Source: Polyangiaceae bacterium (GTDB lineage Bacteria > Myxococcota_A > Polyangia > Polyangiales > Polyangiaceae). From it: a stretch of DNA of 64,000 nucleotides. This document shows positions 23,593-42,500 of the stretch, one piece after another (within the stretch, counting starts at the first letter, position 1; each line of letters starts with the position of its first letter). Under the pieces are notes generated by a model. It did no database searches, was not told the DNA's origin, and was given only the letters and a program-made list of their open reading frames with translations. The position numbers and the translations under genes are program-made. The stretch covers positions 124,001 to 188,000 of the forward strand of contig JANXOF010000053.1 of NCBI GenBank assembly GCA_025353725.1. The letters run 5' to 3'.

Positions 23593-24318
23593 TTAGTAGA
23601 CGCGAAAACCATGGCCCAAAAGCGCGCTAAAAACGTTGCATAACGCATGAAACGCAACACTCGCGCCGATCCCACGCGTGCGACAACGGAGCCACCCGAA
23701 CGCGAGCGAGGGAAAAAAGACGGCAAGGCGGGCGGGTTCGCGAATCGTCGCAAAGTGCCCGAGAGCGAAGATGATACTCGTCGCGAGAAGCGCGAGTCCC
23801 ACCGGCGCGCCCAAGACCGTCACACGACTTGGAAACGCCTCGTCGAGTCGCGACTGAAGGTAGCCGCGATAGAAGGCCTCTTCAGGAAGCGCGATGATCA
23901 AAAGCTGTCCTGAAATCTCGTTCAGCAAGTCGACGACGCTACCGTGGAGCGCAAACGATCCCCGCACATGCCACACCGCGCGCCAACCGAAGAAGAACGG
24001 AGCGAACGTCAGGGCTCCGAAGGCGAGCGCCCAAAGCGTCGCCTTACAGACCTCGCGGAAAAGCCTTCTTGCGTTCAAGGGCCCGGGTAGGACGAGCCCC
24101 CCGAGCGTCAGCCCCGAGAGCGAAACGCGCACGTCGTCGCTACGCCAAACAAGCGCCCACGTGGCGGCAAGGAAGACGAACCCTACGGCCATGGCCACGT
24201 AGGCGTCGGGCACAAATCCGGACGCGACTGTCACTAAGCTCGTGACGGCAGCCGCGACGAGCAGAGACTCAACGAGCGCGCGTACACGCAGAGGGGTGTC
24301 CCTCGGGCGACGCGTCAC
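23593..24318 (-). CDS. CPBP family intramembrane glutamic protease
   Basis: About 241 residues with seven or so hydrophobic segments. Motif 1 of the CPBP/Abi family is seen as LPEEAFYRGYLQSRL (EExxxR), and a later membrane helix carries SIIFALGHFAT (His motif). The GTG at 24318 overlaps the stop of the kinase gene (GTGA) and gives the most economical start; a GTG at 24393 is longer but overlaps the kinase by 79 bp. Family members cleave within membranes (CAAX processing, bacteriocin immunity). The target is unknown. Confidence 0.78.
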   Translation of the reverse strand: MTRRPRDTPLRVRALVESLLVAAAVTSLVTVASGFVPDAYVAMAVGFVFLAATWALVWRSDDVRVSLSGLTLGGLVLPGPLNARRLFREVCKATLWALAFGALTFAPFFFGWRAVWHVRGSFALHGSVVDLLNEISGQLLIIALPEEAFYRGYLQSRLDEAFPSRVTVLGAPVGLALLATSIIFALGHFATIREPARLAVFFPSLAFGWLRCRTRGIGASVAFHALCNVFSALLGHGFRVY

Positions 24319-27044: not shown

Positions 27045-27131
27045 CGAGGGCGGCCCATAAAATGCTACGCCGATTCGCGCAGAAACGAAAAGCCTTCTTG
27101 GTGCGTCGCACTTCACGCCTATCCTACCAGC

Positions 27132-27941
27132 GTGGGCGCGTCGGAAACGAGTACCGATAAAGACAACGATGCCGGAAACGGCAACGACCTCCGTGAGGAG
27201 GCGGACGGGGGCCGCGATCGCGGTCGTGAGCGGCTGCGAGACGCAGAAGCCGGGCAAGCACGCTTTGCGGACCTCGGAGAAATTGCCGCTGAGGTGGCCC
27301 ACGAGCTTCGCAATGCGTTGCAAGTGATTCGCGCGAATGCGTTCATCGCGCGACAAGACATCCCCAAATGTGAGCGAAACCTCGCTCAAATCGAGCGTAG
27401 CGCGAGGCTGGCTCACCAAATCGTCGATGACCTGATGACGCTCGCGCGAGGCGAGTGCGGTGCCCAAGAGCCCGTGCTCGTCGCCGACCTCCTGAGCGCA
27501 GCGCGCGAGGATTTGCCCGAAGCGGCCGCCACTTACCTCGACCGCTTCGACCCGGCGAACCTTACGGTATTTGCCCACGTTGGTCTCCTTGCGCGGTGTC
27601 TGCACGCGCTCTATGACAACGCGCAGCGCGCTTCCTCGCCGCGCGCGCCACGGATCGAGACGCGCGCTTGGATCGCAGATGGCTGCGCCGTGATCGAGAT
27701 CGCCGATGATGGTCCGGGCATCCCTCCCGCGATGGCCTCGAGTCTTTTTGAGCCATTTGTCACGGGCCGTCCGGGAGGAACGGGGCTCGGCCTCGCGCTC
27801 GCGAAGCGCATGGCGATAGCCCACGATGGAAGCCTGGTGCTCGTTCCCTCCGCAACCGGGGCAGGAGCCACGTTCAGAATCGCATGGCCCTTGCCGACGT
27901 TCGATGCGCTTTCGCTTGCGCGAGCCTCGCTCGATCGTTAA
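27132..27941 (+). CDS. Soluble sensor-less histidine kinase
   Basis: 269 residues starting at GTG. There is no membrane segment or obvious sensor domain; a charged, probably helical N-terminus leads into HisKA with the phospho-acceptor His57 in EVAHELRNAL. The HATPase_c boxes are present: N box YDNAQRA, G1 DDGPGIP, F box FEPFVTG and G2 GTGLGLALAKR. No response regulator is adjacent. It is divergent from the Ser/Thr kinase and lies 10 bp before the next gene, so they may be co-transcribed. Confidence 0.85.
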   Translation: MGASETSTDKDNDAGNGNDLREEADGGRDRGRERLRDAEAGQARFADLGEIAAEVAHELRNALQVIRANAFIARQDIPKCERNLAQIERSARLAHQIVDDLMTLARGECGAQEPVLVADLLSAAREDLPEAAATYLDRFDPANLTVFAHVGLLARCLHALYDNAQRASSPRAPRIETRAWIADGCAVIEIADDGPGIPPAMASSLFEPFVTGRPGGTGLGLALAKRMAIAHDGSLVLVPSATGAGATFRIAWPLPTFDALSLARASLDR

Positions 27942-27951
27942 AAACCTGCGC

Positions 27952-28566
27952 ATGAAGCAACCTCGATCGCGCGTGGCTCACGGTATGGCACGGGCTGCGC
28001 TCGCGGGTACCGTCAGCCTCGCTGTTTTCGCAGGCGCAGGCGCAGGTTCGTGTGCAGGCATCGGTTCAGTCCGCGAGGCCCAAGCGCTCGGTCTCGTTGG
28101 TACGCTTCGCCCCGCCGCACAGGTCATCGATGCCGACGGTCACACGCTGGACCTCCGAGCGGTCAACGGCAAGCCGATGCTCGTTCTCTACGAAGATCAA
28201 GAATCGGCGAAACTCAACGATGCGTTCAAAGCCGATCTCGCGCACCTGGCAAAGGGCGACCGCTACCGCAGCTCCGTGGCACTCGTCCCCGTTGCGGACC
28301 TCCAAAGCTTTGATTTCTGGCCGGCGCGAGGCTTCGTGAAGGACGCCATCCGAAGCGAGTCGAAGAAGGCCGGCACGACCATCTACTGCGACTGGGATGG
28401 CGCCTTCCAACGTGCGGCAGGCTTCAAGCGTGGCACCAGCAGTGTTCTTTTGGTCGGTCGAAACGCACGCATTCTGTTCGCGTTCGAGGGCGCGCTTGGA
28501 AAGTCAGAGCGCGACACGGTCATCGCGCTGCTCCGCAGCGAAGTCGCGGCAGAGGGAGGATCGTAG
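27952..28566 (+). CDS. Secreted thioredoxin-fold protein (YtfJ-like), no CxxC
   Basis: 204 residues. The ATG at 27952 gives a signal sequence (ARAALAGTVSLAVFAGAGAG) before the mature part. The core (VNGKPMLVLYED through SSVLLVGRNARILFAFEG) follows the beta-alpha order of a thioredoxin/peroxiredoxin fold. The active-site CxxC is missing (YEDQESA at that place), so a redox role is doubtful. It resembles periplasmic YtfJ-type proteins. It is convergent with the cobalamin-binding regulator gene. Confidence 0.55.
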   Translation: MKQPRSRVAHGMARAALAGTVSLAVFAGAGAGSCAGIGSVREAQALGLVGTLRPAAQVIDADGHTLDLRAVNGKPMLVLYEDQESAKLNDAFKADLAHLAKGDRYRSSVALVPVADLQSFDFWPARGFVKDAIRSESKKAGTTIYCDWDGAFQRAAGFKRGTSSVLLVGRNARILFAFEGALGKSERDTVIALLRSEVAAEGGS

Positions 28567-28618: not shown

Positions 28619-29470
28619 TCACTCGCCGCGGACCGCAGCGGTGCCGTCGCGGAAGGTTCGGGCCACCGCTTCGAGCTCCCAGAGGGAAAAGAGGACATCC
28701 ACCCGCGGGTGGACCTCTTGGAGACGCGCCGCTCCAGCACCACCGAGAATCACGCGTGTGTGCGGACCTACGGACGTCGCGATGGCACGAAGTTCACCTT
28801 CGGCGCGGACGGCGTCGAGCGTGACGGGCACGCTGCAAACGATGACGTCAGGAGCTCGCGCGACGCACCAAGCAATGAGTTCGTTCGTCGGCACTCCGCG
28901 GCCAAGAAGGACACATTGAAATCCGACGGACTCGAGGCAAAGCTGCGCTAGCCGCGCGCCCATCTCGTGCTCGTCACCTCCCAAAGCAAGTACGCCTGCA
29001 AACCCTACATTGCACTCTGCACGCACATGGGGGCGCGCCATGATGAGCGCGGCTCCGAGGACATTCGCGATAATGTGCTCCTCGGCGATGCTCAGTCGAC
29101 CCGATTGCCACCGATCTCCCGTTTCACGTAACACGGGCCCGATGAGCGTCTCCAGTATGGGAGCAACAGCGGCGTCGCGTCGCGCTGCCGTTACGATGAT
29201 GTTCGCCGCCGCGTCGACATCACCGAGAAGTGCGAGAGCAATCACTTCGTCAATCGTCGTAACGGGAGCCTGGTCGTTCGACTCGAGCGTTCGGAGAAGC
29301 TCAATGTCGGTTCGCCGAAAGCGCAAGAGTCCGCCGGGGGTCATCGACGTGGGAAAGCTCCCCGAACGGACAAGGCGATGAACTTGCTCGCGTGAAAGAC
29401 CGAACCATTCGGCCACTTCCCCGACGGAAAGCCACTCACTCTGTCGGCTCGCTCGGCCCTTTTGCTTCAT
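28619..29470 (-). CDS. Cobalamin-binding regulator: excisionase-type HTH plus CarH-like B12 domain
   Basis: 283 residues. Residues 12-60 form an HTH_17/excisionase-like winged helix (WLSVGEVAEWFGLSREQVHR). Residues 70-145 match the B12-binding helical cap, with Trp121, Glu131 and His132 spaced exactly as Trp131/Glu141/His142 of Thermus CarH. Residues 155-275 are a Rossmann B12 domain with GGDEHEMGARL, where His168 equals the lower axial ligand His177. In CarH, adenosylcobalamin dissociates in light and releases the operator. Here the DNA-binding domain is HTH_17 rather than a typical MerR domain. The gene lies 84 bp behind the sigma-54 activator and next to the bilin cluster, so light or B12 control of that cluster is a reasonable inference. 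Confidence 0.82.
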   Translation of the reverse strand: MKQKGRASRQSEWLSVGEVAEWFGLSREQVHRLVRSGSFPTSMTPGGLLRFRRTDIELLRTLESNDQAPVTTIDEVIALALLGDVDAAANIIVTAARRDAAVAPILETLIGPVLRETGDRWQSGRLSIAEEHIIANVLGAALIMARPHVRAECNVGFAGVLALGGDEHEMGARLAQLCLESVGFQCVLLGRGVPTNELIAWCVARAPDVIVCSVPVTLDAVRAEGELRAIATSVGPHTRVILGGAGAARLQEVHPRVDVLFSLWELEAVARTFRDGTAAVRGE

Positions 29471-29553: not shown

Positions 29554-30903
29554 CTAGAGCGCCCCTCCGCGCTTAAGCCGATCTCGAACGGTACTTCGAG
29601 GCAGGCCAAGTTCACGTGCTGTCGCGGCAAGGTTGCGACCGCTCCGCTCAAACGCGTTTATCGTCATCGTTCGCTCCATCGCTCGAAGGGCCGTAACGCT
29701 CTCAGGCGGTGTCGGCGTAGACGCGTCTCGGGCCCCGATTGGCGCGTCGAACTGCGGAACTCGCGGTGGCTTCAGAGACGGCAGGCGCGGGAGATTCGCG
29801 AACTCTTTCGGCGCGACGGACTCCTTCGCTTCTTGTGCCGCCGCCTGTCGAATCGCCTCGCGTATCGCGCGCGCGGTCAGCGCAAGCCCGTCGCACAGAA
29901 TCGCAGCCCTCTCGACCACGGCTCGAAGCTCCCGAACATTTCCCGGCCATTGATGCTCAAGGAGAGCCGCTTCGGCGTCCGTCTCGAGAACGGCGCTCCG
30001 AACTCCGTGGCGCAACGCAAATTGCTCCACGAACGAACGCGCCAAGAGAGGAGCGTCGCTTAGCCGCTCACTCAACGGCGGAATGCAAATCGTGAACCCT
30101 GAGAGGCGATAGAAAAGGTCGCGACGAAGCACGTGACTGCGCGCGGCATTGCGATGGGTCGCGCTGACGATGCGCGCCGCCAGCGGAATGTCTTCGTTCG
30201 AACCCAGGCGACGAAAGGAACGCTCTTCCAGGGCACGAAGGAGCTTGGGCTGCAGGTCGAAGGGAAGATCTCCTATCTCGTCGAGAAAAACGGTCCCACG
30301 TCCGCCGTGCTCGAAGAGGCCGGGGCGCGCCTTAGCGGCCCCCGTATAGGCCCCGGAGGCGACACCAAAAAGTTCAGCTTCAAACAGGTTCGCCGGAACA
30401 GCCGCGCAGTTGATCCCGACGAATCCGCCGTCCTGACTCTTCGACGCTGCGTGAATCGCGCGAGCGACGACCTCTTTTCCCGTGCCCGTTTCGCCGAGAA
30501 GCAGCACCGGCAGCCGCGGAAACTTAGCGACCCGACGAATCTGGTCGCGTACGAGCTCGATCGCAGGGCTCGCTCCAAGCACCAGGGCCGCCGGATCACC
30601 CGCCGGTAGTGGGCTCTCGGGTGCTTGCGTTTCGAGCAGCCATTCAAAAGCCGAGCGCGGGTGCACCTCCGTGAGGAAGCGAGGGGTGCGCGTGTCGTTC
30701 TGCAACCTACGCGCAAGAAGCAAGTGGCCGTCCGCTCGCGGACCGCACGCCTTTAGGGCGAGCGAATCGAGAATGGCGACCTCGTAATGAGCAAGAGCGA
30801 AATCCGCTCCTTCGGTGTCGATCCAACGCCAGCGTCGGCGCGCCGGCGACACGTCCAAAAGACGACGAAGGAGAGGGTCAGCGCTGAGGACTACGATGGT
30901 CAT
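29554..30903 (-). CDS. Sigma-54-dependent transcriptional activator (Fis family)
   Basis: 449 residues. Residues 1-100 look like a degenerate receiver domain (IVVLSADPLLRRLL, VAILDSLAL). The AAA+ domain (about 105-340) has Walker A GETGTGKE, the sigma-54-contacting loop as GAYTGA instead of GAFTGA, Walker B GTVFLDEIGDL and the WPGNVREL segment. A Fis-type HTH ends the protein (NLAATARELGLPRSTVRDRL). It should drive open-complex formation at sigma-54 promoters. A matching promoter and an inverted repeat lie between this gene and the divergent bilin operon, making that operon its most likely target. Confidence 0.9.
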   Translation of the reverse strand: MTIVVLSADPLLRRLLDVSPARRRWRWIDTEGADFALAHYEVAILDSLALKACGPRADGHLLLARRLQNDTRTPRFLTEVHPRSAFEWLLETQAPESPLPAGDPAALVLGASPAIELVRDQIRRVAKFPRLPVLLLGETGTGKEVVARAIHAASKSQDGGFVGINCAAVPANLFEAELFGVASGAYTGAAKARPGLFEHGGRGTVFLDEIGDLPFDLQPKLLRALEERSFRRLGSNEDIPLAARIVSATHRNAARSHVLRRDLFYRLSGFTICIPPLSERLSDAPLLARSFVEQFALRHGVRSAVLETDAEAALLEHQWPGNVRELRAVVERAAILCDGLALTARAIREAIRQAAAQEAKESVAPKEFANLPRLPSLKPPRVPQFDAPIGARDASTPTPPESVTALRAMERTMTINAFERSGRNLAATARELGLPRSTVRDRLKRGGAL

Positions 30904-30965: not shown

Positions 30966-31000
30966 GTGACGGAAACCGTCGAAGCGTCGGATTTCGTCAC
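30966..31000. promoter_or_regulatory. Inverted-repeat candidate activator site (UAS)
   Basis: GTGACGGAAACC (30966-30977) is matched on the other strand by GTGACGAAATCC (31000-30989), identical at 10 of 12 positions, centre-to-centre about 23 bp (two helical turns). It lies roughly 110-145 bp upstream of the -24/-12 element, the usual distance for a bacterial enhancer-binding protein, and 63 bp before the activator's own start. Binding by the neighbouring regulator is inferred. Confidence 0.5.
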
Positions 31001-31108: not shown

Positions 31109-31124
31109 TGGAACATGACTTGCT
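31109..31124 (+). promoter_or_regulatory. Sigma-54 (-24/-12) promoter of the bilin operon
   Basis: TGGAACATGACTTGCT matches the sigma-54 consensus TGGCACGNNNNTTGCW at all but two of the specified positions, with the invariant GG and GC at exact spacing. Transcription would begin near 31135, leaving a short leader to the AGGAG ribosome site and ATG at 31172. A divergent sigma-54 activator gene lies just upstream. Confidence 0.65.
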
Positions 31125-31171: not shown

Positions 31172-31381
31172 ATGACCCGTTTCATTCAATGGCTTTCGAG
31201 CTTTTTTACGAACCTATTCGGCAGCGCCATGACCCCGCTTGCGGCCGGACCGACCGCGAATGCGCCCGCGCTTAAAGAGGCAACGGCAGCGGCGACAATC
31301 GAACCTCTTGTCCCCACGAGCGCACCGCCCACGACTGGCCTTCGCATCTCGGAGTTCATCGCCACGACGGTTTGGGATTGA
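31172..31381 (+). CDS. Small protein with N-terminal amphipathic helix, first gene of bilin operon
   Basis: 69 residues. The first 20 (MTRFIQWLSSFFTNLFGSAM) can form a strongly amphipathic helix of the kind that lies on membranes or serves as a docking peptide. The rest is Ala/Pro/Thr-rich and ends in LRISEFIATTVWD. No family recognised. The ATG at 31172 has AGGAG four bases upstream and lies downstream of the predicted sigma-54 start point; an upstream GTG frame (from 31022) would start before the promoter and is rejected. It overlaps the next gene. Confidence 0.5.
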   Translation: MTRFIQWLSSFFTNLFGSAMTPLAAGPTANAPALKEATAAATIEPLVPTSAPPTTGLRISEFIATTVWD

Positions 31382-31872
31382 GGCGCGCCGGGTCACAGGT
31401 AGACACGCGCATTCCTGGCGCGGACGTCCGCCTTGCGGAGGAAGCCCTCTTCCGGAGGGTGACCCAGCGGGTGGTTCTTCCCGTTGACGTTCGAGAAGAA
31501 CCAGTCGGCGAGATGCTCACCGAAAAGCCGGTCGCCACGGAGTCATCCCTCGAACGGCAGCTCGGTCACATTGACTTTTTCGAGCAGGCCGTCGTTGTCG
31601 ATAGCGAGGGAAATGTAATTGCGGCGATTGGGGCAGAGCCCGAGTCGATTCTCGGAGTCGCAAACCTTCTTCGGGCTCTGATGGAGGACGCGACGTGCAT
31701 CGGCGCTCCCTTGACGTGCGAGCTCACGTGCGACGGACGAACTTTTTTCGGAGTGCTGGGAGGGAAGCGTTTCGCACTCCTCGCGCCGACGCGCCGCGAC
31801 ATGACAACGGAACGCCTCGCGGCGGTACTGCGGCTGCTGATCGACGATGGGGGTCCACGTGGAGATAGCTGA
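31378..31872 (+). CDS. Possible roadblock/LC7-like protein
   Basis: About 164 residues. The start is uncertain: a TTG at 31378 overlaps the previous stop (TTGA), and an ATG at 31513 would give 119 residues. The C-terminal 90 residues (VVVDSEGNVIAAIG ... FFGVLGGKRFALLAP) have the beta-beta-alpha-beta order of roadblock/LC7 domains, which in myxobacteria (MglB) regulate small GTPases. This is a fold guess by eye, with no diagnostic residue. It overlaps the next gene by 26 bp. Confidence 0.5.
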   Translation: MRRAGSQVDTRIPGADVRLAEEALFRRVTQRVVLPVDVREEPVGEMLTEKPVATESSLERQLGHIDFFEQAVVVDSEGNVIAAIGAEPESILGVANLLRALMEDATCIGAPLTCELTCDGRTFFGVLGGKRFALLAPTRRDMTTERLAAVLRLLIDDGGPRGDS

Positions 31873-32683
31873 CACCGCAGTAACGTTAGAAAGCATCGCG
31901 GCACCTCTCGTGAACATCGCAGGCGTTCGTCAGATTGTGCTTTTCAGCGGCCGCGATGTGCAAGCGTGTGATGCGACAGGGCCCGTCGAACCATCGCCCG
32001 ACGCGGGCGACATCGGCCTGAGCTTGCTCGACCTCCCGCGCGTCACGGAGACGGCGCCGAGGCGACTCGTCGTTCGCGGCGACAAGGGAACGCTCATCTT
32101 CAAGTTTTTTGCCACTCGCAGCGTCGTCGGCGTTCGTACGGAGTCGTGTGACAACTCAACGAGCTTGCAACGTGTCATCGACGCGCTCGGCGCCGGGACG
32201 CCACAACGCGATACCGAAACGATGAAGCTAACCGCCGTAAAGGCACCGCTCGCCGCCATCCCGCGGCCGAGAAACGCGCCTACGACTCTCGCTAACGCGA
32301 GTTCCGCGCCCGCAGCCGCTGCGACCCAAGACCGCGCGCCGCGCCCCCCACCTTCGCTCAGCACACACTCTCGCAAGGAGGCGCAAGACGCCTTTGCGCG
32401 ATTGGCCGTCACTGCGCGTAAGTACCTCGGTGCGCGCGTGGTCGCGACCTACTTCCGCGCGACGAAACCAGGTTTGCTGACAGGCTACGAGGTCGCGGAC
32501 AACTCGACGCTAACGGCCGTTGACGGCCGCCTGGACGTCAATGAAGTCGCGCACCTGAACGAATGGCTTACGGCCTTCATTGTGCGCGTCATGAAGGTCA
32601 TCCTCGACTTCGACGCTCAGGCAAAGGTCGCGCTCGGCGATACGGCCTCGTGGTTGCTCTCCGAAATTCAAAAAGAACCATGA
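31847..32683 (+). CDS. Possible roadblock-like protein with extra C-terminal domain
   Basis: 278 residues. The first 120 (TLESIAAPLVNIAGVRQIVLFSG ... GTLIFKFFATRSVVGVR) could again be a roadblock/LC7-like domain. A Pro/Ala linker (residues 130-170) leads to a C-terminal module (KYLGARVVATYFRAT, then LNEWLTAFIVRVMKVILDFD) that I do not recognise. The stop overlaps the ferredoxin start by 4 bp. Two consecutive proteins of similar fold suggest a heteromeric complex. Function not assigned. Confidence 0.5.
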   Translation: MGVHVEIADTAVTLESIAAPLVNIAGVRQIVLFSGRDVQACDATGPVEPSPDAGDIGLSLLDLPRVTETAPRRLVVRGDKGTLIFKFFATRSVVGVRTESCDNSTSLQRVIDALGAGTPQRDTETMKLTAVKAPLAAIPRPRNAPTTLANASSAPAAAATQDRAPRPPPSLSTHSRKEAQDAFARLAVTARKYLGARVVATYFRATKPGLLTGYEVADNSTLTAVDGRLDVNEVAHLNEWLTAFIVRVMKVILDFDAQAKVALGDTASWLLSEIQKEP

Positions 32684-33165
32684 AAACGCTCACTCTCGAA
32701 CCCATCGGGCGCGAAATTGACGTCCGCACGGCGTCGCTTCTGGTCACTGCGCTCCTTCGCGAATCTCGCGGCGCGCTCAAGCAAGTATGCGGCGGCAAGG
32801 GCATCTGCGCCACCTGCCACGTTCGTGTTCTCGTCGGAACTGAAAAGCTATCGCCGGTATTGGAGCGAGAGCGCAGGACTCTCACGCTCATCAGCGGGGC
32901 GAACGCTACGTCGAGACTCGCATGCCAGGCGCAGGTGATAGGCGATGGCGTAACGGTTCAAATCCCTCCAGGGATCTACCTCGAGAAACTTGCGGACGTC
33001 GAAGCGCTCATCGGACGACGCGCGGAAGAACCGCTCTTTCATCCTATCTCCGGCCAGGTGCTCGTTCCGGCCGGGAAAATCATCACGCGGAGCGTCGTCG
33101 GCGCCATTCGCACCCTTGAAGTCGACGTCGTGGCAGCACTAACCGGCACCCAACGAGCCTGCTGA
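32680..33165 (+). CDS. 2Fe-2S ferredoxin
   Basis: 161 residues. The plant-type cluster motif is complete: Cys37, Cys43 and Cys46 (CGGKGICATC) and Cys82 (RLACQ). The spacing resembles ferredoxins of the adrenodoxin/adenylate-cyclase-associated type. About 80 residues follow the usual domain end, an unexplained extension. Bilin reductases and bacterial heme oxygenases both take electrons from such ferredoxins, so the context suggests it as electron donor for the two enzymes at the operon's end. The ATG at 32680 overlaps the previous stop (ATGA). Confidence 0.85.
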   Translation: MKTLTLEPIGREIDVRTASLLVTALLRESRGALKQVCGGKGICATCHVRVLVGTEKLSPVLERERRTLTLISGANATSRLACQAQVIGDGVTVQIPPGIYLEKLADVEALIGRRAEEPLFHPISGQVLVPAGKIITRSVVGAIRTLEVDVVAALTGTQRAC

Positions 33166-33175
33166 GAGTCAAACT

Positions 33176-33961
33176 ATGCTGCAAGAACACAAGCAAACGC
33201 TCGATGAGTCCCTCCTCGTGCTCGCGTCGAAGCGCACGCGACGCGCCCCGCAAGCGCGATTGTTCAACGGCTCGGGCACGCCATCCAGTGAGGTCGCAAC
33301 CGAGCTCACTCCGAAAATCGCGGACGCGCGAACGGCCCCGTTGACTAAGCCGACACTGTCCCGCTTTGGCGGACTCAAAGCGATGATCGCCATGAGCCCG
33401 CCGATGGAGGGAAACGTCTCGGCCGCAAAGTCCGTCAGCGCGACCGAGATCTCGACCGGAAAGACTGTGCCACGCAGTATTCAGACGAGCGCCTCAAAGC
33501 CACCGTTACCGAGACCGCGCGCTGAGGTTAAACCTCGGCGGGATCCAGAGGCGAATGCCCACGAGGCTGCCACGCCAGAAAACGCCGCCGTCCTCAAGCA
33601 GGTCGGCGCGGTGAGCTCCTCGCTCGAAGACACTCATGACGGCGCGGAAGCGATGCAGCTTCGAGGCAAAATCACCGAGCAGGCTCTTCTTGAAGCGCCA
33701 TGGGGAGCGTCGCTGCACTGGCTCTCGAGTCCGGTGGCTCCGGCTACCCCGCGCGAAGAGGTTCTTAGTCTGACGTCTGGCGCCCAAAATTCCGACCCGG
33801 AGCAGCTCATTTCCGCGCCGTGGGCGGAGCTCCTTGCGCTTTTCGCCACCGCGCACGACGACGCAGCAAGAGCACCGACCGAGTCGGGAGTCGTCGCAAT
33901 TCACGGTGAGACCCGCGCGGACCTAAACATTCCGAAAATCGCAGCAGCCGCATGGGAATGA
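33176..33961 (+). CDS. Predicted disordered protein with duplicated APW motif
   Basis: 261 residues, family unknown. The first 150 are rich in Ala, Pro, Lys, Arg and Ser and likely disordered. The C-terminal third holds two related short segments: EQALLEAPWGASLHWLSSP and, 45 residues on, EQLISAPWAELLALFATA. Both have the pattern E-Q-x(0,1)-L-[IL]-x-A-P-W followed by hydrophobic residues, as in a repeated helical docking motif. It may act as a scaffold or linker within the operon's complex; this is inference. The next gene overlaps by 4 bp. Confidence 0.55.
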   Translation: MLQEHKQTLDESLLVLASKRTRRAPQARLFNGSGTPSSEVATELTPKIADARTAPLTKPTLSRFGGLKAMIAMSPPMEGNVSAAKSVSATEISTGKTVPRSIQTSASKPPLPRPRAEVKPRRDPEANAHEAATPENAAVLKQVGAVSSSLEDTHDGAEAMQLRGKITEQALLEAPWGASLHWLSSPVAPATPREEVLSLTSGAQNSDPEQLISAPWAELLALFATAHDDAARAPTESGVVAIHGETRADLNIPKIAAAAWE

Positions 33962-35352
33962 GCGGGACGCTTCCCGATCACGTGACTCAACTCGGTCCGT
34001 ACCACCTCAAGCGACTCCTCGGTGCGGGGGCTTTCGCAGACGTCTACGAAGCCGTACACACAACTTCTGGGCATCCGTTTGCGCTCAAAGTCTTCACGCC
34101 TATCGGAGCGGAAGCTGGATTCGTGCGCGAGCTCGCCGTGTCGTTCGCGCATCACCATCCAAACCTTGTTGAGACTCACGACCTTGGCTATGGCGCGCAT
34201 CCCTTCCTTGCGCTTCACCTCGCGCGCGGAGGGACGCTTCGCGCGCGGATGGCACAGGGGCGCCTCCAGCCTCAGGCGCTACGCCACGTCGTGCTTGAAG
34301 TCGGGCGCGGGCTGCACGCACTTCACGAGCGCGGGATTGTGCACGGCGACGTCAAGCCAGAAAATGTGCTCTTTGACGAAGACGGCGACTTCGCCCAGGC
34401 GCGCGTCGCGGACTACGGAGCTTCTTGCGTACGGGGGACCGCACAGCGAGCGGGTTCGCCGGCTTATGGCACCCCCGAAACGAACGGTGGACTGTCGACG
34501 TTCGCGCAAGACAACTACGCGCTCGCCCTCGTCGCGTTCGAGGCGATCACCGGAACGCGTTCGATCAAGGACTCGTTCGCGAACGTCACGGACCACGACG
34601 TCCGCGGGCTCGAAAGTCGCGTACTGGGCAAGCTTCGCCGTGCTCTCGCCGTGTCTCCTCGACTCCGTTTTCCGTCGACCGTCGCACTCGTTCACGCGCT
34701 TGACCAAGCCCTCGCCGGTCCGCACGAACTCGCGCGCGTCTCCCTCGACAACGACAACCGAACCCGACGGTGTCTCGCCTCTGGCGCGTTCGCCGTGCGC
34801 CGAGGCGACAAGGTAGAAATCCGAGACGCCTATGGGCTTCGCGAGCACATCGCTTTCGGGCCTGTCTTGGACCTCGCTATTAGCCTCTCGACGCCCACGT
34901 CTTCGGTAGTTCACGGAGGGTCCACCTTGTGGGTGAATGGGCAGGCCTTCGCAAGCAACCTGGAGGCGACATCACGAACAGGACCATGCACGATTCGGCG
35001 CTTTGCGGGGGACGCAATCGCCGTGGTCGATGCCGACAGGCGAACCCTTCGCTCCTTTCCCGCCAACAGGTACTGGGCTCGAGTCGATGAACCGCTTCGC
35101 GCGCTTTTCTCAGTGTTTACAACGCAGGGAGACATTGTTCTCGGCATACCCGAAAGTGGCACTTCCGTTTACCTTATCTCGGATCGAGAAAAAATCACGC
35201 GGGCGCCCGTGCCGCGCGGCGTCTCCCGTATGCACATGTCTCTTCACGATGCCATCATCGAGGACAAAAGCGGAGCTCGCACTACACTTGTTTCGGAAGC
35301 CCCTATCGAGGGCTCATTTGAAGGCACGTTTAGGAAGGAAGAGCGTTTATGA
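33958..35352 (+). CDS. Atypical Ser/Thr protein kinase
   Basis: 464 residues from the ATG at 33958 (ATGA overlap with the previous stop; an ATG 6 bp earlier is also possible). Residues 14-265 are a Hanks-type kinase: LLGAGAFADVYEA, FALKVF, HGDVKPENVL and VADYGAS. HRD is thus HGD and DFG is DYG. The catalytic Asp residues remain, so activity is possible, but loss of the Arg suggests it is not switched by classic activation-loop phosphorylation. Residues 270-464 are beta-rich with no recognised family and no membrane segment. Cytoplasmic, probably signalling within the bilin system. Confidence 0.85.
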   Translation: MSGTLPDHVTQLGPYHLKRLLGAGAFADVYEAVHTTSGHPFALKVFTPIGAEAGFVRELAVSFAHHHPNLVETHDLGYGAHPFLALHLARGGTLRARMAQGRLQPQALRHVVLEVGRGLHALHERGIVHGDVKPENVLFDEDGDFAQARVADYGASCVRGTAQRAGSPAYGTPETNGGLSTFAQDNYALALVAFEAITGTRSIKDSFANVTDHDVRGLESRVLGKLRRALAVSPRLRFPSTVALVHALDQALAGPHELARVSLDNDNRTRRCLASGAFAVRRGDKVEIRDAYGLREHIAFGPVLDLAISLSTPTSSVVHGGSTLWVNGQAFASNLEATSRTGPCTIRRFAGDAIAVVDADRRTLRSFPANRYWARVDEPLRALFSVFTTQGDIVLGIPESGTSVYLISDREKITRAPVPRGVSRMHMSLHDAIIEDKSGARTTLVSEAPIEGSFEGTFRKEERL

Positions 35353-35993
35353 GCAAGGGTCTCATCGCGGTATCCGAACAACTCGTCGAGCACGTAGCTC
35401 GCGCTTTACCGGACGACGTATCTGTCACAGTGAGCCCCCTTGCGGGCGCCATGCTTGAGGCCTGCGGTCGCCGAGCGGACGCTATCGTCGTCGTCGTTCA
35501 ACACGATGGCAGCGAGGACGACGACGCGAAGCTCGTCGGGGCACTCCGCTCTCTCGCGCGCGTCTCGCCAAAGCGAGGCCTGCTGCGTGCCGTTTATGTC
35601 GCTGGTCCCGGCGCGCGAAGCCTTTGCGCGACGTCTGACCTTTTTGTGCCGCTCCCCTCGGACCCGAAGGCGTTCTCAGACCTCCTTGCGGAAGACTTTA
35701 TGGCGGCTTCCGTGCACGCTCTGCAAGCCGTGGACGCGGAAGGCGCCAGCGGGCCGGCCTCCGCCACCGCGCCAGAATCGGGGCGAAGCCCACGAGACGC
35801 AGCCGCGAAGGTCGAACGCGAAACCGCGATGAAGCGTCTCGAAGAAGAGCTCGACAACATGCGGGTCCGGCTACGTGCGCTGAGCGACGAGAGCGACACG
35901 CGCGAAACTGAAAAAGGCACGGAAACAGAACCGTTTTCGGGTCGTGCGCCACGTGAACACCCCCGCGAGCCGGCTTGGCAATCGGCGAAGTAG
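35349..35993 (+). CDS. Possible degenerate receiver protein with coiled-coil tail
   Basis: 214 residues. Residues 1-115 alternate strands and helices (GLIAVSEQLVEHVARAL, DAIVVVVQHDG, LLRAVYVAG, DLFVPLPSDPKAFSDLL) in the order of a CheY-like domain, but without the usual acidic pocket. Residues 148-180 (AAKVERETAMKRLEEELDNM...) form a coiled coil, followed by a polar tail. The start overlaps the kinase stop by 4 bp. Function not known. Confidence 0.5.
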   Translation: MSKGLIAVSEQLVEHVARALPDDVSVTVSPLAGAMLEACGRRADAIVVVVQHDGSEDDDAKLVGALRSLARVSPKRGLLRAVYVAGPGARSLCATSDLFVPLPSDPKAFSDLLAEDFMAASVHALQAVDAEGASGPASATAPESGRSPRDAAAKVERETAMKRLEEELDNMRVRLRALSDESDTRETEKGTETEPFSGRAPREHPREPAWQSAK

Positions 35994-36023
35994 CAGCAAA
36001 TCACTCATCCCTCTGGAGCACTC

Positions 36024-36740
36024 ATGGCGCACCCGTACAATATCGCACCGCCGCAGTATCAGCCAACGCGCGACTACCCTTTTCCCGTTCCAAACATTGG
36101 TGAAGGCGCTTTCGTACTTCGAAAACACAACAACTACAATGCCAAGGACTTTTTGAAATTTGCGGTTCAAAAAGGAACCGTCCACACACGTTCGGGGCTC
36201 CGTGCGTTTCTCGCCACGGAAGACTTTGTCGTTGGACTTCATCGAGGCTTGGAAGAAGAGGTCGGCGACGCTGCGGCGATGATTCTTTACCGCTGCGGAT
36301 TCCGCTGGGGCGTAGAAGACATGAAAGTCTTTGCGCCGCTTGTCGAAGGCGAGTTCAACCTCCGTTTCGAGGATATGGACATTCACTTCATGTTGGAGAC
36401 GTGGTGGTGGTGGCTCCAAACTCAAGGGTGGGGCGCGTGGAGACTGGACTTGTCTCAAAGAAAACAAGGCATGATCACGGTCGACATTTTCGACAGTGCG
36501 ATAGCGAAAAGTCTTGGCAACGTCGGCAAACCCGTTTGTTACCTTTATGCCGGAGTCTTGGCCGGAGTGTTTACGTACATCGCAAAGCGCGATCTCGCGG
36601 GCATCGAAGTGCAGTGTTACGCAATGGGCGAGGACTTCTGCCGATTCATCATCGGCTCCGAAAAGCGTATTAATGCCGCTCAGTTCTGGCTTACCGAGGG
36701 CGCGACGGCGGCGGAGATCGTGAGTCGGATGTCCACGTAG
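36024..36740 (+). CDS. V4R-domain protein (first copy)
   Basis: 238 residues. The C-terminal half matches the V4R (4-vinyl reductase-like) domain: KPVCYLYAGVLAGVFTYI, then EVQCYAMGEDFCRFII, with the conserved cysteines and Gly of this fold. V4R domains bind small hydrophobic ligands or tetrapyrrole-related molecules in BchJ and act as sensors in XylR/DmpR regulators. The N-terminal part has an unusual WWWW run near residue 127. A strong ribosome site (TGGAG) precedes the ATG. Placed directly before the phycobiliprotein-like globin, it is a candidate bilin/heme carrier or sensor. Confidence 0.72.
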   Translation: MAHPYNIAPPQYQPTRDYPFPVPNIGEGAFVLRKHNNYNAKDFLKFAVQKGTVHTRSGLRAFLATEDFVVGLHRGLEEEVGDAAAMILYRCGFRWGVEDMKVFAPLVEGEFNLRFEDMDIHFMLETWWWWLQTQGWGAWRLDLSQRKQGMITVDIFDSAIAKSLGNVGKPVCYLYAGVLAGVFTYIAKRDLAGIEVQCYAMGEDFCRFIIGSEKRINAAQFWLTEGATAAEIVSRMST

Positions 36741-36819
36741 CGCTCGACGACCCGCAATCCAATGGCGTCAAAGGCGACGCCCAAATGATAGACGATTCCA
36801 CGACAGGGAGACAACAGCC

Positions 36820-37308
36820 ATGGACGCAGAGCTCGACACGATGATGCGCAACGCCGAAGGTCGGTATCCAAGTTCTGAGGAGCGACGGCGCGCCGGGGAG
36901 ATTATAAAAGCGATGGAGGCGCGGTTTGTGACCTGTGCGAGCCTCGAGGCCCGAGAGACGGAGATCATCAAGCAGACATCCGAACTCATGCTGAAGAAGT
37001 TCCCCTCCTTTAAAGAGCGCTATCTCGCAAAGGAAAAGACAGAACGCGACCTCGCGATTACGCTTCGTTACATCGGCCACGCGGTCCTGCGGAACGACGT
37101 TGAGTTCCTTCGCGAGAGGCTGCTTTACTGGATGCAGGGAATCTTCGCCTCCAAGGGCTTTGGCGAAACAGTCAAGGGCGCCTACGAAATACTTAAGCAA
37201 GTTATCGCGACAGAGCTTTCATCGCGCGACGCATTGGAGGTCAACCGATTCGTCGACATTTGCATTCAATCTTGCGAGCGACCGCAAGACCGCGTCGAGG
37301 TCGCATGA
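36820..37308 (+). CDS. Phycobiliprotein-like globin (BBAG-type)
   Basis: 162 residues, all helical. The segment ERDLAITLRYIGHAVLRND (75-93) aligns with the phycobiliprotein helix that normally begins C-x-R-D and continues with an aliphatic/LRY pattern. A following amphipathic helix and YEILKQVIATELSS fit the rest of the fold. The bilin-attaching Cys84 position is Thr74 here, so any pigment would be held non-covalently or through other residues (Cys39, Cys148 and Cys152 exist). Globins of this kind, called bilin biosynthesis-associated globins, are known beside bilin reductases in heterotrophic bacteria. SD AGGGAG precedes the ATG. Similarity is distant and was judged by eye. Confidence 0.6.
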   Translation: MDAELDTMMRNAEGRYPSSEERRRAGEIIKAMEARFVTCASLEARETEIIKQTSELMLKKFPSFKERYLAKEKTERDLAITLRYIGHAVLRNDVEFLRERLLYWMQGIFASKGFGETVKGAYEILKQVIATELSSRDALEVNRFVDICIQSCERPQDRVEVA

Positions 37309-37958
37309 TAGGTTTTGGTGCTCCCGCGAACTACTTCGCGCAGTCGACGTACTATAAGTGGGATATGGGACGCGGCGTCGTGCGCGAGCGCGGCGGGTCG
37401 CGCGTCATGGCGTTCCCGCAGGAATTCTCAATCGGCCTCATCGCGGGCCTCATCGAGGAGTGCGGCGAAGCATGGCCGGTCGTCCTTCAAAGCTGCGGGA
37501 GCTTTTGGGGAAAGCGGCAGATGGACCGTCTCGAAACGGAGCTGAGTGCGTTTCACGGCGAGCGCATGAAGAGCCTGCCGACGGCGACAGCTCACGCGGC
37601 GATCGCAGAATGCCTTGCCGTCCACGGATGGGGTCGTGCGGAATTCGACCTGTCCGAGATCAAGAAACGCCTTCTTCTCGTGCGTGTCAATGAAAGCCCG
37701 ATGGCTCGCGCGGTCATTGACGGAAAGCTAGACACCGGAAACAAGCCCGTAGACGCGCTTCTTTCTGGGGCTCTCGGCGCCATGTTTACCCACGCGAGCG
37801 GTGCAGCCATGGAGTGCCGCGAAATCCGCTGCACGGCGAGCGGCGCGCCCGTCTGCGAGTTTGTGCTCGCACCTGAAGGTCGCCTCTCAGGCGTGCTCGC
37901 GCTCGTGCGCAAGAACGCTTCGCGCGAAGATATCCTTGAGAGTCTCGTCGAGCAGTGA
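37305..37958 (+). CDS. V4R-domain protein (second copy)
   Basis: 217 residues from the ATG at 37305, overlapping the globin stop by 4 bp, so globin and V4R are made in step. The C-terminal half again has the V4R pattern: KPVDALLSGALGAMFTHAS, then ECREIRCTASGAPVCEFVLAP. The N-terminal half differs from the first V4R protein, but both share a Trp-Gly pair in a helical stretch (GWGRAEFDLS here, GWGAWRLDLS there). The two are therefore paralogues that may pair. No membrane segment; cytoplasmic. Confidence 0.68.
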   Translation: MIGFGAPANYFAQSTYYKWDMGRGVVRERGGSRVMAFPQEFSIGLIAGLIEECGEAWPVVLQSCGSFWGKRQMDRLETELSAFHGERMKSLPTATAHAAIAECLAVHGWGRAEFDLSEIKKRLLLVRVNESPMARAVIDGKLDTGNKPVDALLSGALGAMFTHASGAAMECREIRCTASGAPVCEFVLAPEGRLSGVLALVRKNASREDILESLVEQ

Positions 37959-38026
37959 GTTCTGGCGCTCGGCGCGTTCCCCTTCGATTTATACGACCCT
38001 TTGATTGATTGGTGATGAGGTAATTC

Positions 38027-38752
38027 ATGGTCCGCTCGGGTACGATGAAGACGTTAAAGCAGGCGACGCGTTCAGACCACGAACACGTCGAATCGTATCC
38101 CGTGACCCGGGCGCTCGCAGAGGGGACGATGACCCGCCTGCAGTATGAGCTGCTACTCGCCGGTTATGCGGCCTGCCACGAATCCCTCTTGGCACGCTTG
38201 TCAGGCCTCTCGCGATTCGGAGGGGTGGCGCGTGCGCCAGAACTAAAGCCGATTGTAGATAGCTTCACGCAACGCGTCGCTTGGCTTCAACAAGATATTC
38301 AAGCTCTCGGCGCGAGGAGCAACACGCGCGCATCGGGCTTCGACTCTACCGATGCCTTTCGCTTGCAGGTCTCGTCGTGGTCACTGCCGAAGGTGCTCGG
38401 TGCCTGCTACGTCTTTGAAGGAGCGGCACTCGGTAATGCGTTTCTCTACCCGCGCCTTCGGGAAAGCCTCACTCTCGAAGACCGCGAATCTCGCTACTTT
38501 CGTGGCTGGGGAGTAGAGACGATGAATCACTTTCGCGCCTTTGGCGAAGCCCTGAGCGGACTTCTCGATAGCGACGGCGATAGCTTCGACGGTCTCGACG
38601 TCGAAGCCGAAGCCGTAGTGGGCGCGCGCCAGACCTTTTCCGCCGTCGGCGCTCTCCTCGAAGAAGTGGGACACCTCACCTACGTTCCCGCCCGCGTGGT
38701 CGCTCGGGAAGGGCGCGCGACGGCTCCGCCGCCTGCGGCGTTCCTCGGATGA
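38027..38752 (+). CDS. Heme oxygenase (biliverdin-forming, BphO/HO-like)
   Basis: 241 residues. The N-terminal LKQATRSDHEHVE supplies the proximal heme ligand (His18, equal to His25 of HO-1). The ACYVFEGAALGNAFLYPRL segment matches the distal Gly-containing region of bacterial heme oxygenases (usually YVLEGSxLGG). The enzyme opens heme to biliverdin, CO and iron with reductant and O2. It directly overlaps the bilin reductase gene (ATGA) and shares the operon with a ferredoxin, which supports a biosynthetic rather than iron-scavenging role. SD GAGG lies eight bases before the ATG at 38027. Confidence 0.82.
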   Translation: MVRSGTMKTLKQATRSDHEHVESYPVTRALAEGTMTRLQYELLLAGYAACHESLLARLSGLSRFGGVARAPELKPIVDSFTQRVAWLQQDIQALGARSNTRASGFDSTDAFRLQVSSWSLPKVLGACYVFEGAALGNAFLYPRLRESLTLEDRESRYFRGWGVETMNHFRAFGEALSGLLDSDGDSFDGLDVEAEAVVGARQTFSAVGALLEEVGHLTYVPARVVAREGRATAPPPAAFLG

Positions 38753-39495
38753 CGGTCGGTTCCTTTTTCGACGAACTCGACATTGTCGTAGGCGAATTCC
38801 TCGAGGCCGTGGGGGCGGTGGAGGAGGCATGCAAAACGGAGTTCAACCACCTCGAAGGCAGGTTAGGCAGCGAAGGCGTATCTCTCGATACGTTGGTTTA
38901 TCGAACACGCGGTTACGGACGCATGGCGTGGGCGAAAATGACCACCGACGCAGGGCGTGCTTTAACCCGAACGCTCGTGGGACTTCCGAGCGGTACGTGC
39001 CCCATCCTTGGGCTCGACATCGTCGCGATGAAAGACAAGGTAAACCTCTTTGCGCTTGACCTCGCCACAACCGACTTGACGGAGTGGCAGGCGTGGGCCG
39101 TCAGCGCGCTTCAGGATGCGAGACTGAGTATTCCAGACTTCGTAGCTCGCCCCCTTCCGGCGTTCACCGAAGGAACATTTTCGGAGCTCGCGTTGATCGG
39201 AAGCATCGGCGACGAACCGCCGGCCGCACTTCTCGCTCCTCTTCGCGTCGTCCTTGATCGCGTGGATACGTTCGCGCGGGACGGCAGGCCTAGCCGAGCG
39301 GCGCGCGCGGCGCTGCATCGATGGATCAAAGCCGAGCGAAGCAACCGCAAGGAGATTGGGGCGCTCGGTCGGATCTTTGGCCAGAGTCTCGCGAATCGCT
39401 TTTTCGAAGACTTCCTCTTCGTCGCTCCACCCGAACTCGAGCTCGAGCTCGAGCTCGAGCGCGAACCTGCGCTCGAGTTGGAACTCTCTTTGTAG
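38749..39495 (+). CDS. Ferredoxin-dependent bilin reductase-like protein (PcyA/FDBR family)
   Basis: 248 residues. The central CPILGLDIVAMKDKVNLFALDL (84-105) matches the FDBR core, with Asp90 at the place of PcyA Asp105. The C-terminal NRKEIGALGRIFG and ANRFFEDFLF match the family ending (N-K/R...FG...A-x-R...LF). The PcyA His88 position reads as Ala60 and Glu76 as Asp47, so the protonation chemistry must differ from PcyA. Family members reduce biliverdin to phycocyanobilin, phycoerythrobilin or related pigments. A Glu-Leu repeat tail (227-248) is unusual. Coupled to heme oxygenase. Remote similarity seen by eye; product unknown. Confidence 0.72.
   Translation: MTVGSFFDELDIVVGEFLEAVGAVEEACKTEFNHLEGRLGSEGVSLDTLVYRTRGYGRMAWAKMTTDAGRALTRTLVGLPSGTCPILGLDIVAMKDKVNLFALDLATTDLTEWQAWAVSALQDARLSIPDFVARPLPAFTEGTFSELALIGSIGDEPPAALLAPLRVVLDRVDTFARDGRPSRAARAALHRWIKAERSNRKEIGALGRIFGQSLANRFFEDFLFVAPPELELELELEREPALELELSL
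39436..39459. repeat. CTCGAG hexamer repeat in the bilin reductase tail
   Basis: Four perfect tandem copies of the palindromic hexamer CTCGAG, coding for alternating Leu-Glu. It is a simple repeat likely to vary in copy number by slippage; each unit change keeps the frame. Confidence 0.85.
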
Positions 39496-39598: not shown

Positions 39599-42500
39599 AT
39601 GCTTCCTATCCGCCTACGCGGAGCCTGCACGCACAACCTTCAAAGCGTCGACCTCGACCTCGAGCCGGGGCAGCTCGTCGCGCTCACAGGGCCGAGTGGC
39701 GCGGGGAAATCTTCCCTCGCGCTCGATACGCTGTACGCCGAAGGTCAACGTCGGTTCGTCGAAAGCTTTAGCCCCTACGCGAGGCAATTTCTCGAACGAC
39801 TCGAGCGGCCACCGGTCGTCTCTCTCGAGCCCATCGCGGCGACGGTCGCGGTCGACCGGAGGGGACCGGTAAAGTCGAGTCGCTCGACCGTGGCCACGCT
39901 CACAGACATCGAGCCCTACCTCGCAGGTCTCTTTGCATGCGAGGCCGTTCCTACGTGCCCAGACTGCCACTTGCCAGCCGCAGCGACGAGCGCGCACGAT
40001 GCCGCGACGCGCGCCGTAGCCGACTTCGGGGAACGCCGAGCCGTCGTCAGCTACCCCGTGCGCATCGACTCTGCGGAAAGCTTTCTCGAAGTGCGCGACT
40101 CGCTGGTTCGTGACGGCTACCGCCGCCTTGTGGTCGGCGGCAACGTCCGAGACGTCGACGACGTGAAGCCGAGTGAAGCGGCCAGGCCCGACGTAGCCGT
40201 CGAGGTCGTCGTCGATCGCTTGACCCTCGCAGCGCGCGACGTGAGGCGCCTCCAGCAAGCGATCGAGGCCGCCTGGGAGCGCGGGCGTGGGCGCGCCGAA
40301 CTACGCACGGTCGAGGCTGCATCGGGTGAGGTTGCATCGATTCCGGACACGGTGACCGTCACGGCCGCGAAGGCGCACGTCGCCATCGCGCGAGGCCTCG
40401 TATGCCCAGGCTGCGCGAAAACGTTCGATCCGCCGCGCGCGGGACTTTTTTCCTACAACTCGCCGCTCGGTGCGTGCGCTGAGTGTCGCGGCTTCGGACG
40501 GATGATCGCGGTCGACTGGGAAAAGGTCATTCCAGACAAGACGAAGTCACTGGACCAAGGCGCCATTAAGGCGTGGTCGGGCAAGTCGAGCGAGTGGGAG
40601 CGCGAGGTGCTCGTCACCTTCGCGCGGAAGCGAAAAATCCCTCTCGACGTAGCGTGGGAGAAGCTCACTGAGGCCCAACGCGTCGCTATCCTCGACGGCG
40701 AAGGCGATTGGGCCGGGGGGAAGTACCCTGGCGTCAAGGCGTGGTTTAAATGGCTCGAAGGCCGCACGTACAAGATGCACGTGCGCGTGTTTCTTTCTCG
40801 GTACCGCGACTACATCCCTTGCGTTTCATGCCACGGTGCGCGCCTTAATCCGACGGCTCGCACGTACCTCGTCGACGGTCTCGACCTCGGTGGTTGGCAC
40901 GGCCTCACCGTGGAGGAATCAAGGCGTCGCCTCGACGCACTCACGCCGACCGACCCGCAAGGCAGGCGCGTGAAAACAGAGCTAGGCACGCGTCTGGCCT
41001 ACCTCGATTCCGTCGGTTTATCCTACCTGACTCTCGACCGTCAGGCGCGGACACTCTCCGGCGGTGAAGCGCAGCGAGCGAGTCTCACGACGGCGCTCGG
41101 CGCGTCGCTCACGGGTACTCTTTTCGTCCTTGATGAGCCCACCGTCGGTCTTCACGCGTCCGATGTGCCTAAGCTCGCAGAAGCGATGCGCGACCTCGCG
41201 AAAGCAGGTAACGCCGTCCTCGTGGTCGAGCACGATCGCGGCATCGTCGAGCGATGCGATCGCGTCGTCGAGATGGGTCCCGGCGCGGGGCCTCACGGCG
41301 GCCGAATTCTGTTTCAGGGGACGCCCGGCGAACTGAGCGCGAGCGACACCGCGACCGGACGAGCGTGGCGCCAAGGAGCAGCCTCGCGCGGCGCGGGGGT
41401 CGAGCGTCGCACGGCAACCGTCAAAGGCGCACCCAAACAGCTCGAAATCACGGGGATCTCCGAAAATAACCTAACGATCGACCGCCTCTCGATCCCACTC
41501 GGAACGCTTTGCGCCATCACGGGCCCGAGCGGCTCAGGCAAAAGCACGCTTGCCGAGGACATCCTCTATCGCGCCGTCGCGCGGTCGGCGGGCGTCGCTG
41601 TCGGCAAGCCAGGCGCGTTCGCCACGATGACCGGGCACGAAGGGTTCAAGAGCGCGGTGCTCGTCGACCAATCGCCGCTCGGCCGAACCGCCCGAGGCAA
41701 CGCTGCAACCTACACGCATGCGTGGGACCGCGTGCGTGCTCGCTTCTCGGCAGAGCCTGAGGCGCATCGGCGAGGTCTCACGCCTGCGCATTTCTCGTTC
41801 AACGTGCCGGGCAAAGGCCGGTGTGAGACGTGCGCGGGGGAAGGCTACGAGACGGTCGAGATGCAGTTTCTCGCCGACGTGATGCTGCTCTGCCCGGTCT
41901 GCCAGGGCAAGCGCTTCAACGCCGACGTCCTCGCCGTGACGCACGCGGGCAAGACCGTCGCGGAGGTCCTCGCGATGACCGTCGACGACGCCATCGCGCT
42001 CTTGTCGCCCGCAGCGACGCGCGATTACGTCATTGAGCACGCGCTCCAGCCACTCACACGCGTAGGGCTCGGCTACCTTCCGCTCGGCCAACCGCTCTCG
42101 ACCCTCTCGGGCGGCGAGGCGCAGCGACTCAAACTTGCGCGCGCGCTCGGTCAAGCGACGCCAGGGACGCTGTTTGTGGTCGACGAGCCGAGCGCAGGAC
42201 TTCACGCGCAAGACGCCGAACACGTCGTTCGCGCGCTTCGTCACCTCGTCGACGAGGGGGCGAGCGTGGTGATGGTCGAGCACGATCTCTCGGTGGTCCG
42301 CGAGGCTGCGTGGGTCATCGATCTCGGGCCAGGCGGCGGGCCGCACGGCGGGCGCGTGGTCGCCGAGGGCACGCCCGAGCAGGTAGCGTCGAGCGGCACC
42401 AAAACCGGCGACGCACTGCGGAACCTCGAAGCCTCAGAGCAAAAGCCGACGACGCTGAAGACCCGAGCAAAGCCGAAGCGCGAGACCAAGAGCGGCCCGA

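Follow-up and report, generated by a model that had tools for sequence, protein, structure and literature searches.

We analysed a 64,000-nucleotide stretch of DNA (the window) from a Polyangiaceae bacterium, and focus here on twelve co-directional genes at 31172-39495 (plus strand) that a preliminary description of the sequence had read as a bilin-synthesis operon. Open reading frame (ORF) and family checks found all twelve ORFs where that description had placed them, and the family matches agreed with its naming of a heme oxygenase (HO), a ferredoxin-dependent bilin reductase (FDBR), a ferredoxin, a phycobiliprotein-like globin, two V4R proteins and a kinase. The genes, in order, are:

31172-31381, plus strand: gene A, a 69-aa tryptophan-motif peptide with the C-terminus LRISEFIATTVWD (its counterpart in the sister species L007 ends in LRVSEFVASTPWD)
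31372-31872, plus strand: gene B, roadblock-like on visual inspection only, without a Pfam match; start uncertain (TTG at 31372 or GTG at 31459)
31847-32683, plus strand: gene C, a predicted roadblock/LC7 domain (residues 14-114) followed by a helical C-terminal domain, from an AlphaFold2 (AF2) model, PDB fold matches and homologues
32680-33165, plus strand: [2Fe-2S] adrenodoxin-type ferredoxin (Pfam Fer2, 2e-9; PMC4284462)
33176-33961, plus strand: gene E, low-complexity with APW-type repeats and the C-terminus IPKIAAAAWE, described by motif resemblance only
33952-35352, plus strand: Ser/Thr protein kinase with a beta-rich C-terminal region (Pfam Pkinase, 8e-28), placed by trees in the cluster-kinase clade
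35349-35993, plus strand: gene G, with no assigned family
36024-36740, plus strand: V4R-A (Pfam V4R)
36820-37308, plus strand: phycobiliprotein-like globin (Phycobilisome, PF00502, 1.4e-15)
37305-37958, plus strand: V4R-B, the second V4R protein (Pfam V4R)
38027-38752, plus strand: HO (Heme_oxygenase, PF01126, 7e-10)
38749-39495, plus strand: FDBR, putatively a pre-PcyA of the pre-3 type (Fe_bilin_red, PF05996, 2e-7)

The Pfam matches of the two V4R proteins have E values of 8e-19 and 1e-7. Most of the genes overlap. Overlaps of 4 bp occur at four junctions (C/ferredoxin, kinase/G, globin/V4R-B and HO/FDBR), where five had been counted previously; the remaining junctions are overlaps of 10, 26 and 10 bp and gaps of 10, 30, 79 and 68 bp. 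GC content at third codon positions is even throughout the twelve genes (0.64-0.72). This junction pattern is consistent with a single operon. Genes B, E and G were found only in the window and in L007. Recurrence in related genomes had been proposed as a check on the locus, and the gene set was indeed present in L007 and, rearranged, in other Myxococcota and in other phyla; it is therefore not a chance assembly.

The bilin-synthesis core

The HO is the sole heme oxygenase match in the genome, and its proximal His was placed by eye at ATRSDH. As a single sequence, the FDBR scored 31.3 bits against PF05996, for which the cut-off is 31, and a profile built from its relatives matched PcyA structures at about 2e-27. 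A corresponding profile of the globin matched allophycocyanin and phycocyanin chains, from about 5e-15, so that both of the structural comparisons suggested in the preliminary description returned the families it had named. The active site of the FDBR keeps Asp105 and has Thr at the His88 position and Ala at the Glu76 position, which is the pre-3 pattern; the His88 position was taken as five residues before the conserved Pro93, and the HMMER alignment is off by one there. In a tree, this enzyme grouped with other Thr/Asp enzymes of Myxococcota (support 96/92). The link to the published pre-3 sequences is through the diagnostic residues only.

Pre-PcyA enzymes in heterotrophs were described by Rockwell, Martin and Lagarias in 2023 (PMC10151467; what we say of this paper refers to its main text). 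According to these authors, pre-1 and pre-3 enzymes are clustered with an HO, an Fe-S protein, two V4R proteins and globins named bilin biosynthesis-associated globins (BBAGs), and the pre-3 enzymes are mostly limited to deltaproteobacteria, Myxococcales in particular. One pre-3 enzyme produces phytochromobilin and phycoerythrobilin, and its BBAG binds bilin. The window has the same composition, with an HO, an Fe-S protein, two V4R proteins and a globin alongside the FDBR, and it shares with the pre-3/BBAG-3 clusters of Myxococcales an FDBR with Asp105, Thr88 and no Glu76. Judged by gene families and diagnostic residues, the window cluster is a pre-3-type pre-PcyA/BBAG cluster whose core has already been published. 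The combination of genes had been put forward as not known to be described; this does not hold for the core, and it stands for the kinase, the tryptophan-motif and roadblock proteins and the sigma-54/B12 regulators, which that main text does not treat.

The globin is phycobiliprotein-like and is encoded beside a pre-PcyA, as is expected of a BBAG. It has TERD where phycobiliproteins and some BBAGs, including those of the pre-3/BBAG-3 clusters, have CXRD. The canonical chromophore cysteine is thus absent, and a bilin would not be expected to attach covalently at this position. CXRD is not required for membership of the BBAG family (PMC10151467), and a Cys occupies the chromophore position in 17 of 108 aligned BBAG-type globins. 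From its sequence, the globin could bind a bilin non-covalently, use another cysteine or have lost bilin binding. The PHY domain of phytochromes was searched for in the genome and none was found; a phytochrome was rejected as the bilin client on this ground. A globin of a different kind was noted in a metagenome-assembled genome of Proteobacteria (L037:13892-16813, plus strand), in which a V4R/kinase/HO cluster contains a 973-aa frame built entirely of phycobiliprotein/BBAG-like globin domains, eight of them in tandem. These domains are 12-32% identical pairwise and have no CXRD cysteines; relatives of the protein were found neither in the three other genomes of its order nor in viral contigs.

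The window ferredoxin belongs to the same family as the ferredoxin of the cyanobacterial clusters considered below, which corresponds by synteny to Fd5/Slr0148. Thr17, Thr67 and Ser72 of the cluster ferredoxin are conserved; the positions of the Fd5 phosphosites were not found in the open literature text. Across the class, the distribution of the cluster is sparse and patchy: the FDBR was detected in 10 of 310 genomes and V4R-A in 12 of 318, and within the genus the cluster is present in 1 of 11 other genomes searched.

Kinase, tryptophan-motif and roadblock proteins across phyla

The slr0144-slr0152 genes of Synechocystis ('cluster e', PMC4284462) are implicated in photosystem assembly and repair and include Fd5 and SpkG. 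They share with the window the V4R pair, a phycobiliprotein-like globin and an adrenodoxin-like ferredoxin, as well as, by synteny only, a Ser/Thr kinase of the same clade. In contrast with the window cluster, the cyanobacterial clusters have neither an HO nor an FDBR and belong to a photosynthetic host. Pre-1-like clusters of Gemmataceae contain the same gene families as the window, including the kinase and the motif protein, in another gene order; unlike the window enzyme, their FDBRs carry Asn in place of His88, and Asp105 is missing from most of them. Acidobacteriota also carry V4R/globin/kinase clusters. Common neighbours of the cyanobacterial clusters (L067, L075, L080, L082 and about 20 more) are a LysR-type regulator, encoded upstream of protein C, or, on the downstream side of the kinase, a thioredoxin-like protein together with a small membrane protein.

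In the alignment, the window kinase has the invariant Lys46, Asp133, Asn138 and Asp154 of an active-type Ser/Thr domain. Of the 76 loci that have two V4R genes and sufficient downstream sequence, 59 have a same-strand kinase that starts within 1.2 kb 3' of V4R-B, and the gap between the two genes is below 60 bp in many heterotroph clusters; several clusters, that of the window included, carry the kinase elsewhere. A tree of 109 kinase domains set the cluster-type kinases, 23 from heterotrophs and 14 from cyanobacteria, apart behind a single branch (SH-aLRT 98), with none of the 64 other kinases among them. These 64 came mainly from the genome of the window, three cyanobacteria, one Gemmataceae and one Blastocatellia genome; as only the best-scoring kinases of each genome were included, a more closely related kinase from outside the clusters may have escaped notice. 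A tree under the LG+C20 mixture model with 63 rows (33 cluster-type, 30 other) recovered the same split (97/89). The clade brings the window kinase together with V4R-B-adjacent kinases of Myxococcota, Planctomycetota, Acidobacteriota and Cyanobacteria. Pairwise distances among the kinases correlate with those of V4R-A (r=0.89), the ferredoxin (r=0.83) and the BBAG (0.61), with a Mantel p of 0.0002 in each case; part of this correlation reflects shared species history. The cluster kinase and the other signalling genes that accompany the core in several phyla appear to be true, long-standing components of the bilin system.

A kinase had been listed in part of the cyanobacterial clusters in 2014 (PMC4284462). 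According to two later papers (PMC11863333 and PMC7860145, both citing Angeleri 2018), SpkG, the last gene of slr0144-slr0152, is needed for the phosphorylation of Fd5. We infer that SpkG (Slr0152), which lies outside our trees, belongs to the cluster-kinase clade from its synteny with the cyanobacterial clusters. The word 'kinase' appears in the main text of PMC10151467 only in a reference.

Several other kinases were noted in the course of this comparison. Gemmataceae-type clusters (L039-L042, L048, L077) carry a second kinase beside, and upstream of, the FDBR or HO; it was rejected as a member of the cluster-kinase clade, as it forms a separate clade in the trees (99). In the window, a 1212-aa kinase to the left of the regulators (24315-27953, minus strand) groups with the background kinases, outside the cluster clade. 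In G246, the cluster kinase is spread over two reading frames (L025:2504-4049, minus strand), perhaps as a pseudogene or through an assembly error. Pseudanabaena sp. lw0831 has a cluster-type kinase away from its cluster, beside petC-petA-like genes (L187:8515-10299, plus strand); it is one of the 14 cyanobacterial kinases of the first tree and is not independent evidence of linkage, because the protein was placed in the cyanobacterial group by score. Several heterotroph clusters also have a gene for a ParA/MinD-like ATPase, either separating V4R-B from the kinase or immediately downstream; these are L045 (12855-13634), L046, L037, L039, L041 and L042.

A second recurrent element is a small low-complexity protein encoded between V4R-A and the globin in most clusters, including most of the cyanobacterial loci examined, with repeats of the form xxFFxx(V/I)(N/P)W(E/D). 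Its C-terminus is aromatic in many heterotrophs (e.g., FADFVWD, FFSDIAW), and the cyanobacterial proteins usually end in DDFSDLF. None of these motif proteins matched a Pfam family. A loose pattern found the protein in 60 of 78 loci with both V4R genes, a figure that describes the set and is no test against chance, because the pattern was drawn from the same sequences; the Pseudanabaena proteins, seen by eye, were missed by it. The window and its sister have no gene between V4R-A and the globin, where the window has 79 bp. Gene A ends in SEFIATTVWD, and with the APW repeats and C-terminus of gene E in mind, we read both as displaced counterparts of the motif protein, probably so for E, by motif alone and with no alignable homology.

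In cyanobacteria and some deltaproteobacteria, the cluster ferredoxin is preceded by a homologue of gene C (cyanobacterial phmmer matches down to 8e-10), with a conserved stretch LGxxVVxNYWKSxRP. No convincing Pfam family was found for it. Its AF2 model has a pLDDT of about 70-90 over residues 11-120, and the PDB matches listed for this model are roadblock-type proteins, including MglB and Ragulator subunits (E near 1e-3, probability 1.00). Protein C is, by predicted fold, a roadblock/LC7 protein. The earlier mention of roadblock-like proteins in the plural is thus borne out for C, and for B it goes no further than resemblance by eye.

Regulatory front end and flanking gene

The following features lie upstream of the operon:

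28619-29470, minus strand: B12-binding helix-turn-helix (HTH) regulator, CarH-like (Pfam HTH_17, B12-binding_2 and B12-binding); an orthologue lies beside the L007 cluster
29554-30903, minus strand: sigma-54-dependent enhancer-binding activator, divergent from the operon (Sigma54_activat, 7e-56, and Fis HTH); the L007 orthologue is in the same place
30968-30998, no strand: inverted-repeat block (GACGGAAACCGTC...GTCGGATTTCGTC), a candidate activator binding site conserved in the L007 intergenic alignment
31109-31124, plus strand: sigma-54 -24/-12-like site TGGAACATGACTTGCT, a consensus match 47 bp before gene A

The Pfam matches and the L007 orthologues uphold the sigma-54/B12 front end of the preliminary description. 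The putative promoter TGGAACATGACTTGCT is the only sigma-54 match with at most one mismatch within the 64 kb, and the same intergenic region of L007 also has a sigma-54-like site with one mismatch; by local density, each of these intergenic sites is expected at about 0.4%. The B12 regulator shares with the photoreceptor CarH a B12-binding domain, an N-terminal HTH and the motifs Wx9EH (WQSGRLSIAEEH) and DxHxxG (DEHEMG); Wx9EH and D/ExHxxG have been used to recognise light-responsive CarH (PMC9304148). In contrast to CarH, its HTH is of the HTH_17 type without RxWERRY, for which reason we call it CarH-like only, and it stands beside a bilin operon rather than a carotenoid operon.

The gene that follows the operon (39614-45046, plus strand) encodes a UvrA-type ATPase of double length (about 1810 aa); the TTG listed as its start, at 39254, would place it in overlap with the FDBR and is probably not the true one.

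Proposed function and its alternatives

The explanation that we favour, with a probability of about 0.62, is that this pre-3-type cluster carries out kinase-controlled bilin synthesis and storage, as the heterotroph counterpart of slr0144-slr0152, a function predicted from sequence. In this scheme, the HO would convert heme to biliverdin and the ferredoxin would pass electrons to the FDBR, whose product, by analogy with the characterised pre-3 enzyme, would be phytochromobilin and/or phycoerythrobilin. The reduced bilin would be held non-covalently by the cysteine-less globin and possibly handed on by the V4R proteins. By phosphorylating the cluster ferredoxin or the globin/V4R assembly, the kinase may control the supply of electrons or the handling of the bilin; the tryptophan-motif proteins would act as docking peptides, and the roadblock protein C would provide a platform. 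Transcription would be driven from the sigma-54 promoter by the divergent activator, and the CarH-like B12 protein would provide a light or cobalamin input. Whether the cluster serves to store pigment, to sense light or redox state, or for photoprotection is not settled.

A number of observations weigh against this explanation. The window kinase sits between the ferredoxin and V4R-A instead of 3' of V4R-B and is on a long branch in the tree; in its AF2 model the kinase domain is good and the C-terminal half is of low confidence, so that a beta-propeller in this region is a guess. As a single sequence the FDBR barely exceeds the Pfam cut-off, and the CXRD cysteine is missing from the globin; either protein could have drifted. 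The sigma-54 sites are consensus matches, of which 0.81 of such quality are expected per 64 kb, and the B12 regulator is without the DNA-recognition motif (RxWERRY) of myxobacterial CarH. SpkG and the published pre-3 sequences are tied to the window by synteny and diagnostic residues only, and the kinase activity of SpkG itself lacks direct demonstration, according to PMC11863333. The roles of the window proteins are predicted from sequence.

If this were an ordinary pre-3 cluster only, the HO, FDBR, ferredoxin, globin and V4R proteins would form the unit, and the kinase and small proteins would be local bystanders. Kinases are common in this genome (150 matches, about one per 44 kb), the gene order of the window is unlike that of other clusters, and Rockwell et al. 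set the neighbouring genes aside because evidence for their conservation was lacking (PMC10151467). However, the cluster kinases of several phyla group together to the exclusion of the other sampled kinases, they co-vary with the core proteins, and in many heterotroph clusters the kinase starts less than 60 bp from V4R-B. The trees, which include kinases of several of the same genomes, disfavour a bystander kinase, and we consider this explanation distinctly unlikely. Somewhat less remote, though still improbable, is a light or redox sensor, in which the bilin-loaded globin/V4R assembly signals through the kinase and the roadblock protein, and bilin synthesis just supplies the chromophore. The presence of both signalling proteins in the operon, the adjoining CarH-like regulator and the lack of a PHY domain protein as an alternative bilin client are in its favour; yet the BBAGs tested by Rockwell et al. 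were weakly fluorescent, with no photoconversion where reported (PMC10151467), the kinase has no recognisable sensor domain and no output gene is evident. The missing chromophore cysteine and the uniqueness of the HO in the genome would also suit heme or tetrapyrrole handling, with V4R proteins and globin binding tetrapyrrole intermediates and the HO and FDBR detoxifying heme or recovering iron. An FDBR, a dedicated ferredoxin and a phycobiliprotein-like globin are not needed for iron recovery, however, and iron-responsive control does not usually take the form of a sigma-54/B12 front end; we give this explanation the least weight.

As to origin, the preliminary description had suggested a relict of the line that led to phycobilisomes. 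This is too strong, because the light-harvesting phycobiliproteins are sister to, and not descended from, the BBAG-1/BBAG-3 line (PMC10151467). A possible scenario, which we offer tentatively, is that a bilin/ferredoxin module under phosphorylation control, made up of the kinase, the roadblock protein, the tryptophan-motif scaffold, the V4R pair, the adrenodoxin-type ferredoxin and the phycobiliprotein-like globin, arose in heterotrophs and was taken up whole by cyanobacteria, where it would have become the slr0144-slr0152 photosystem assembly operon; the myxobacterium would still use the module to control bilin synthesis, possibly in a light-dependent manner through the B12 sensor.

What the present analysis adds to the main text of PMC10151467 is the kinase clade, the motif protein, the roadblock protein C with its cyanobacterial homologues and the sigma-54/CarH-like front end. 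Phycobiliproteins and BBAGs share ancestry, and the functions of the BBAGs, their V4R partners and the slr0144-slr0152 proteins are unsettled. A kinase clade and a motif protein that are retained with the core genes in both heterotrophs and cyanobacteria provide a concrete, testable handle on them, namely whether the cluster ferredoxin, an SpkG-dependent phosphoprotein in Synechocystis, is in heterotrophs a target through which the cluster kinase controls bilin synthesis. The kinase also belongs in analyses of how cyanobacteria acquired the core genes.

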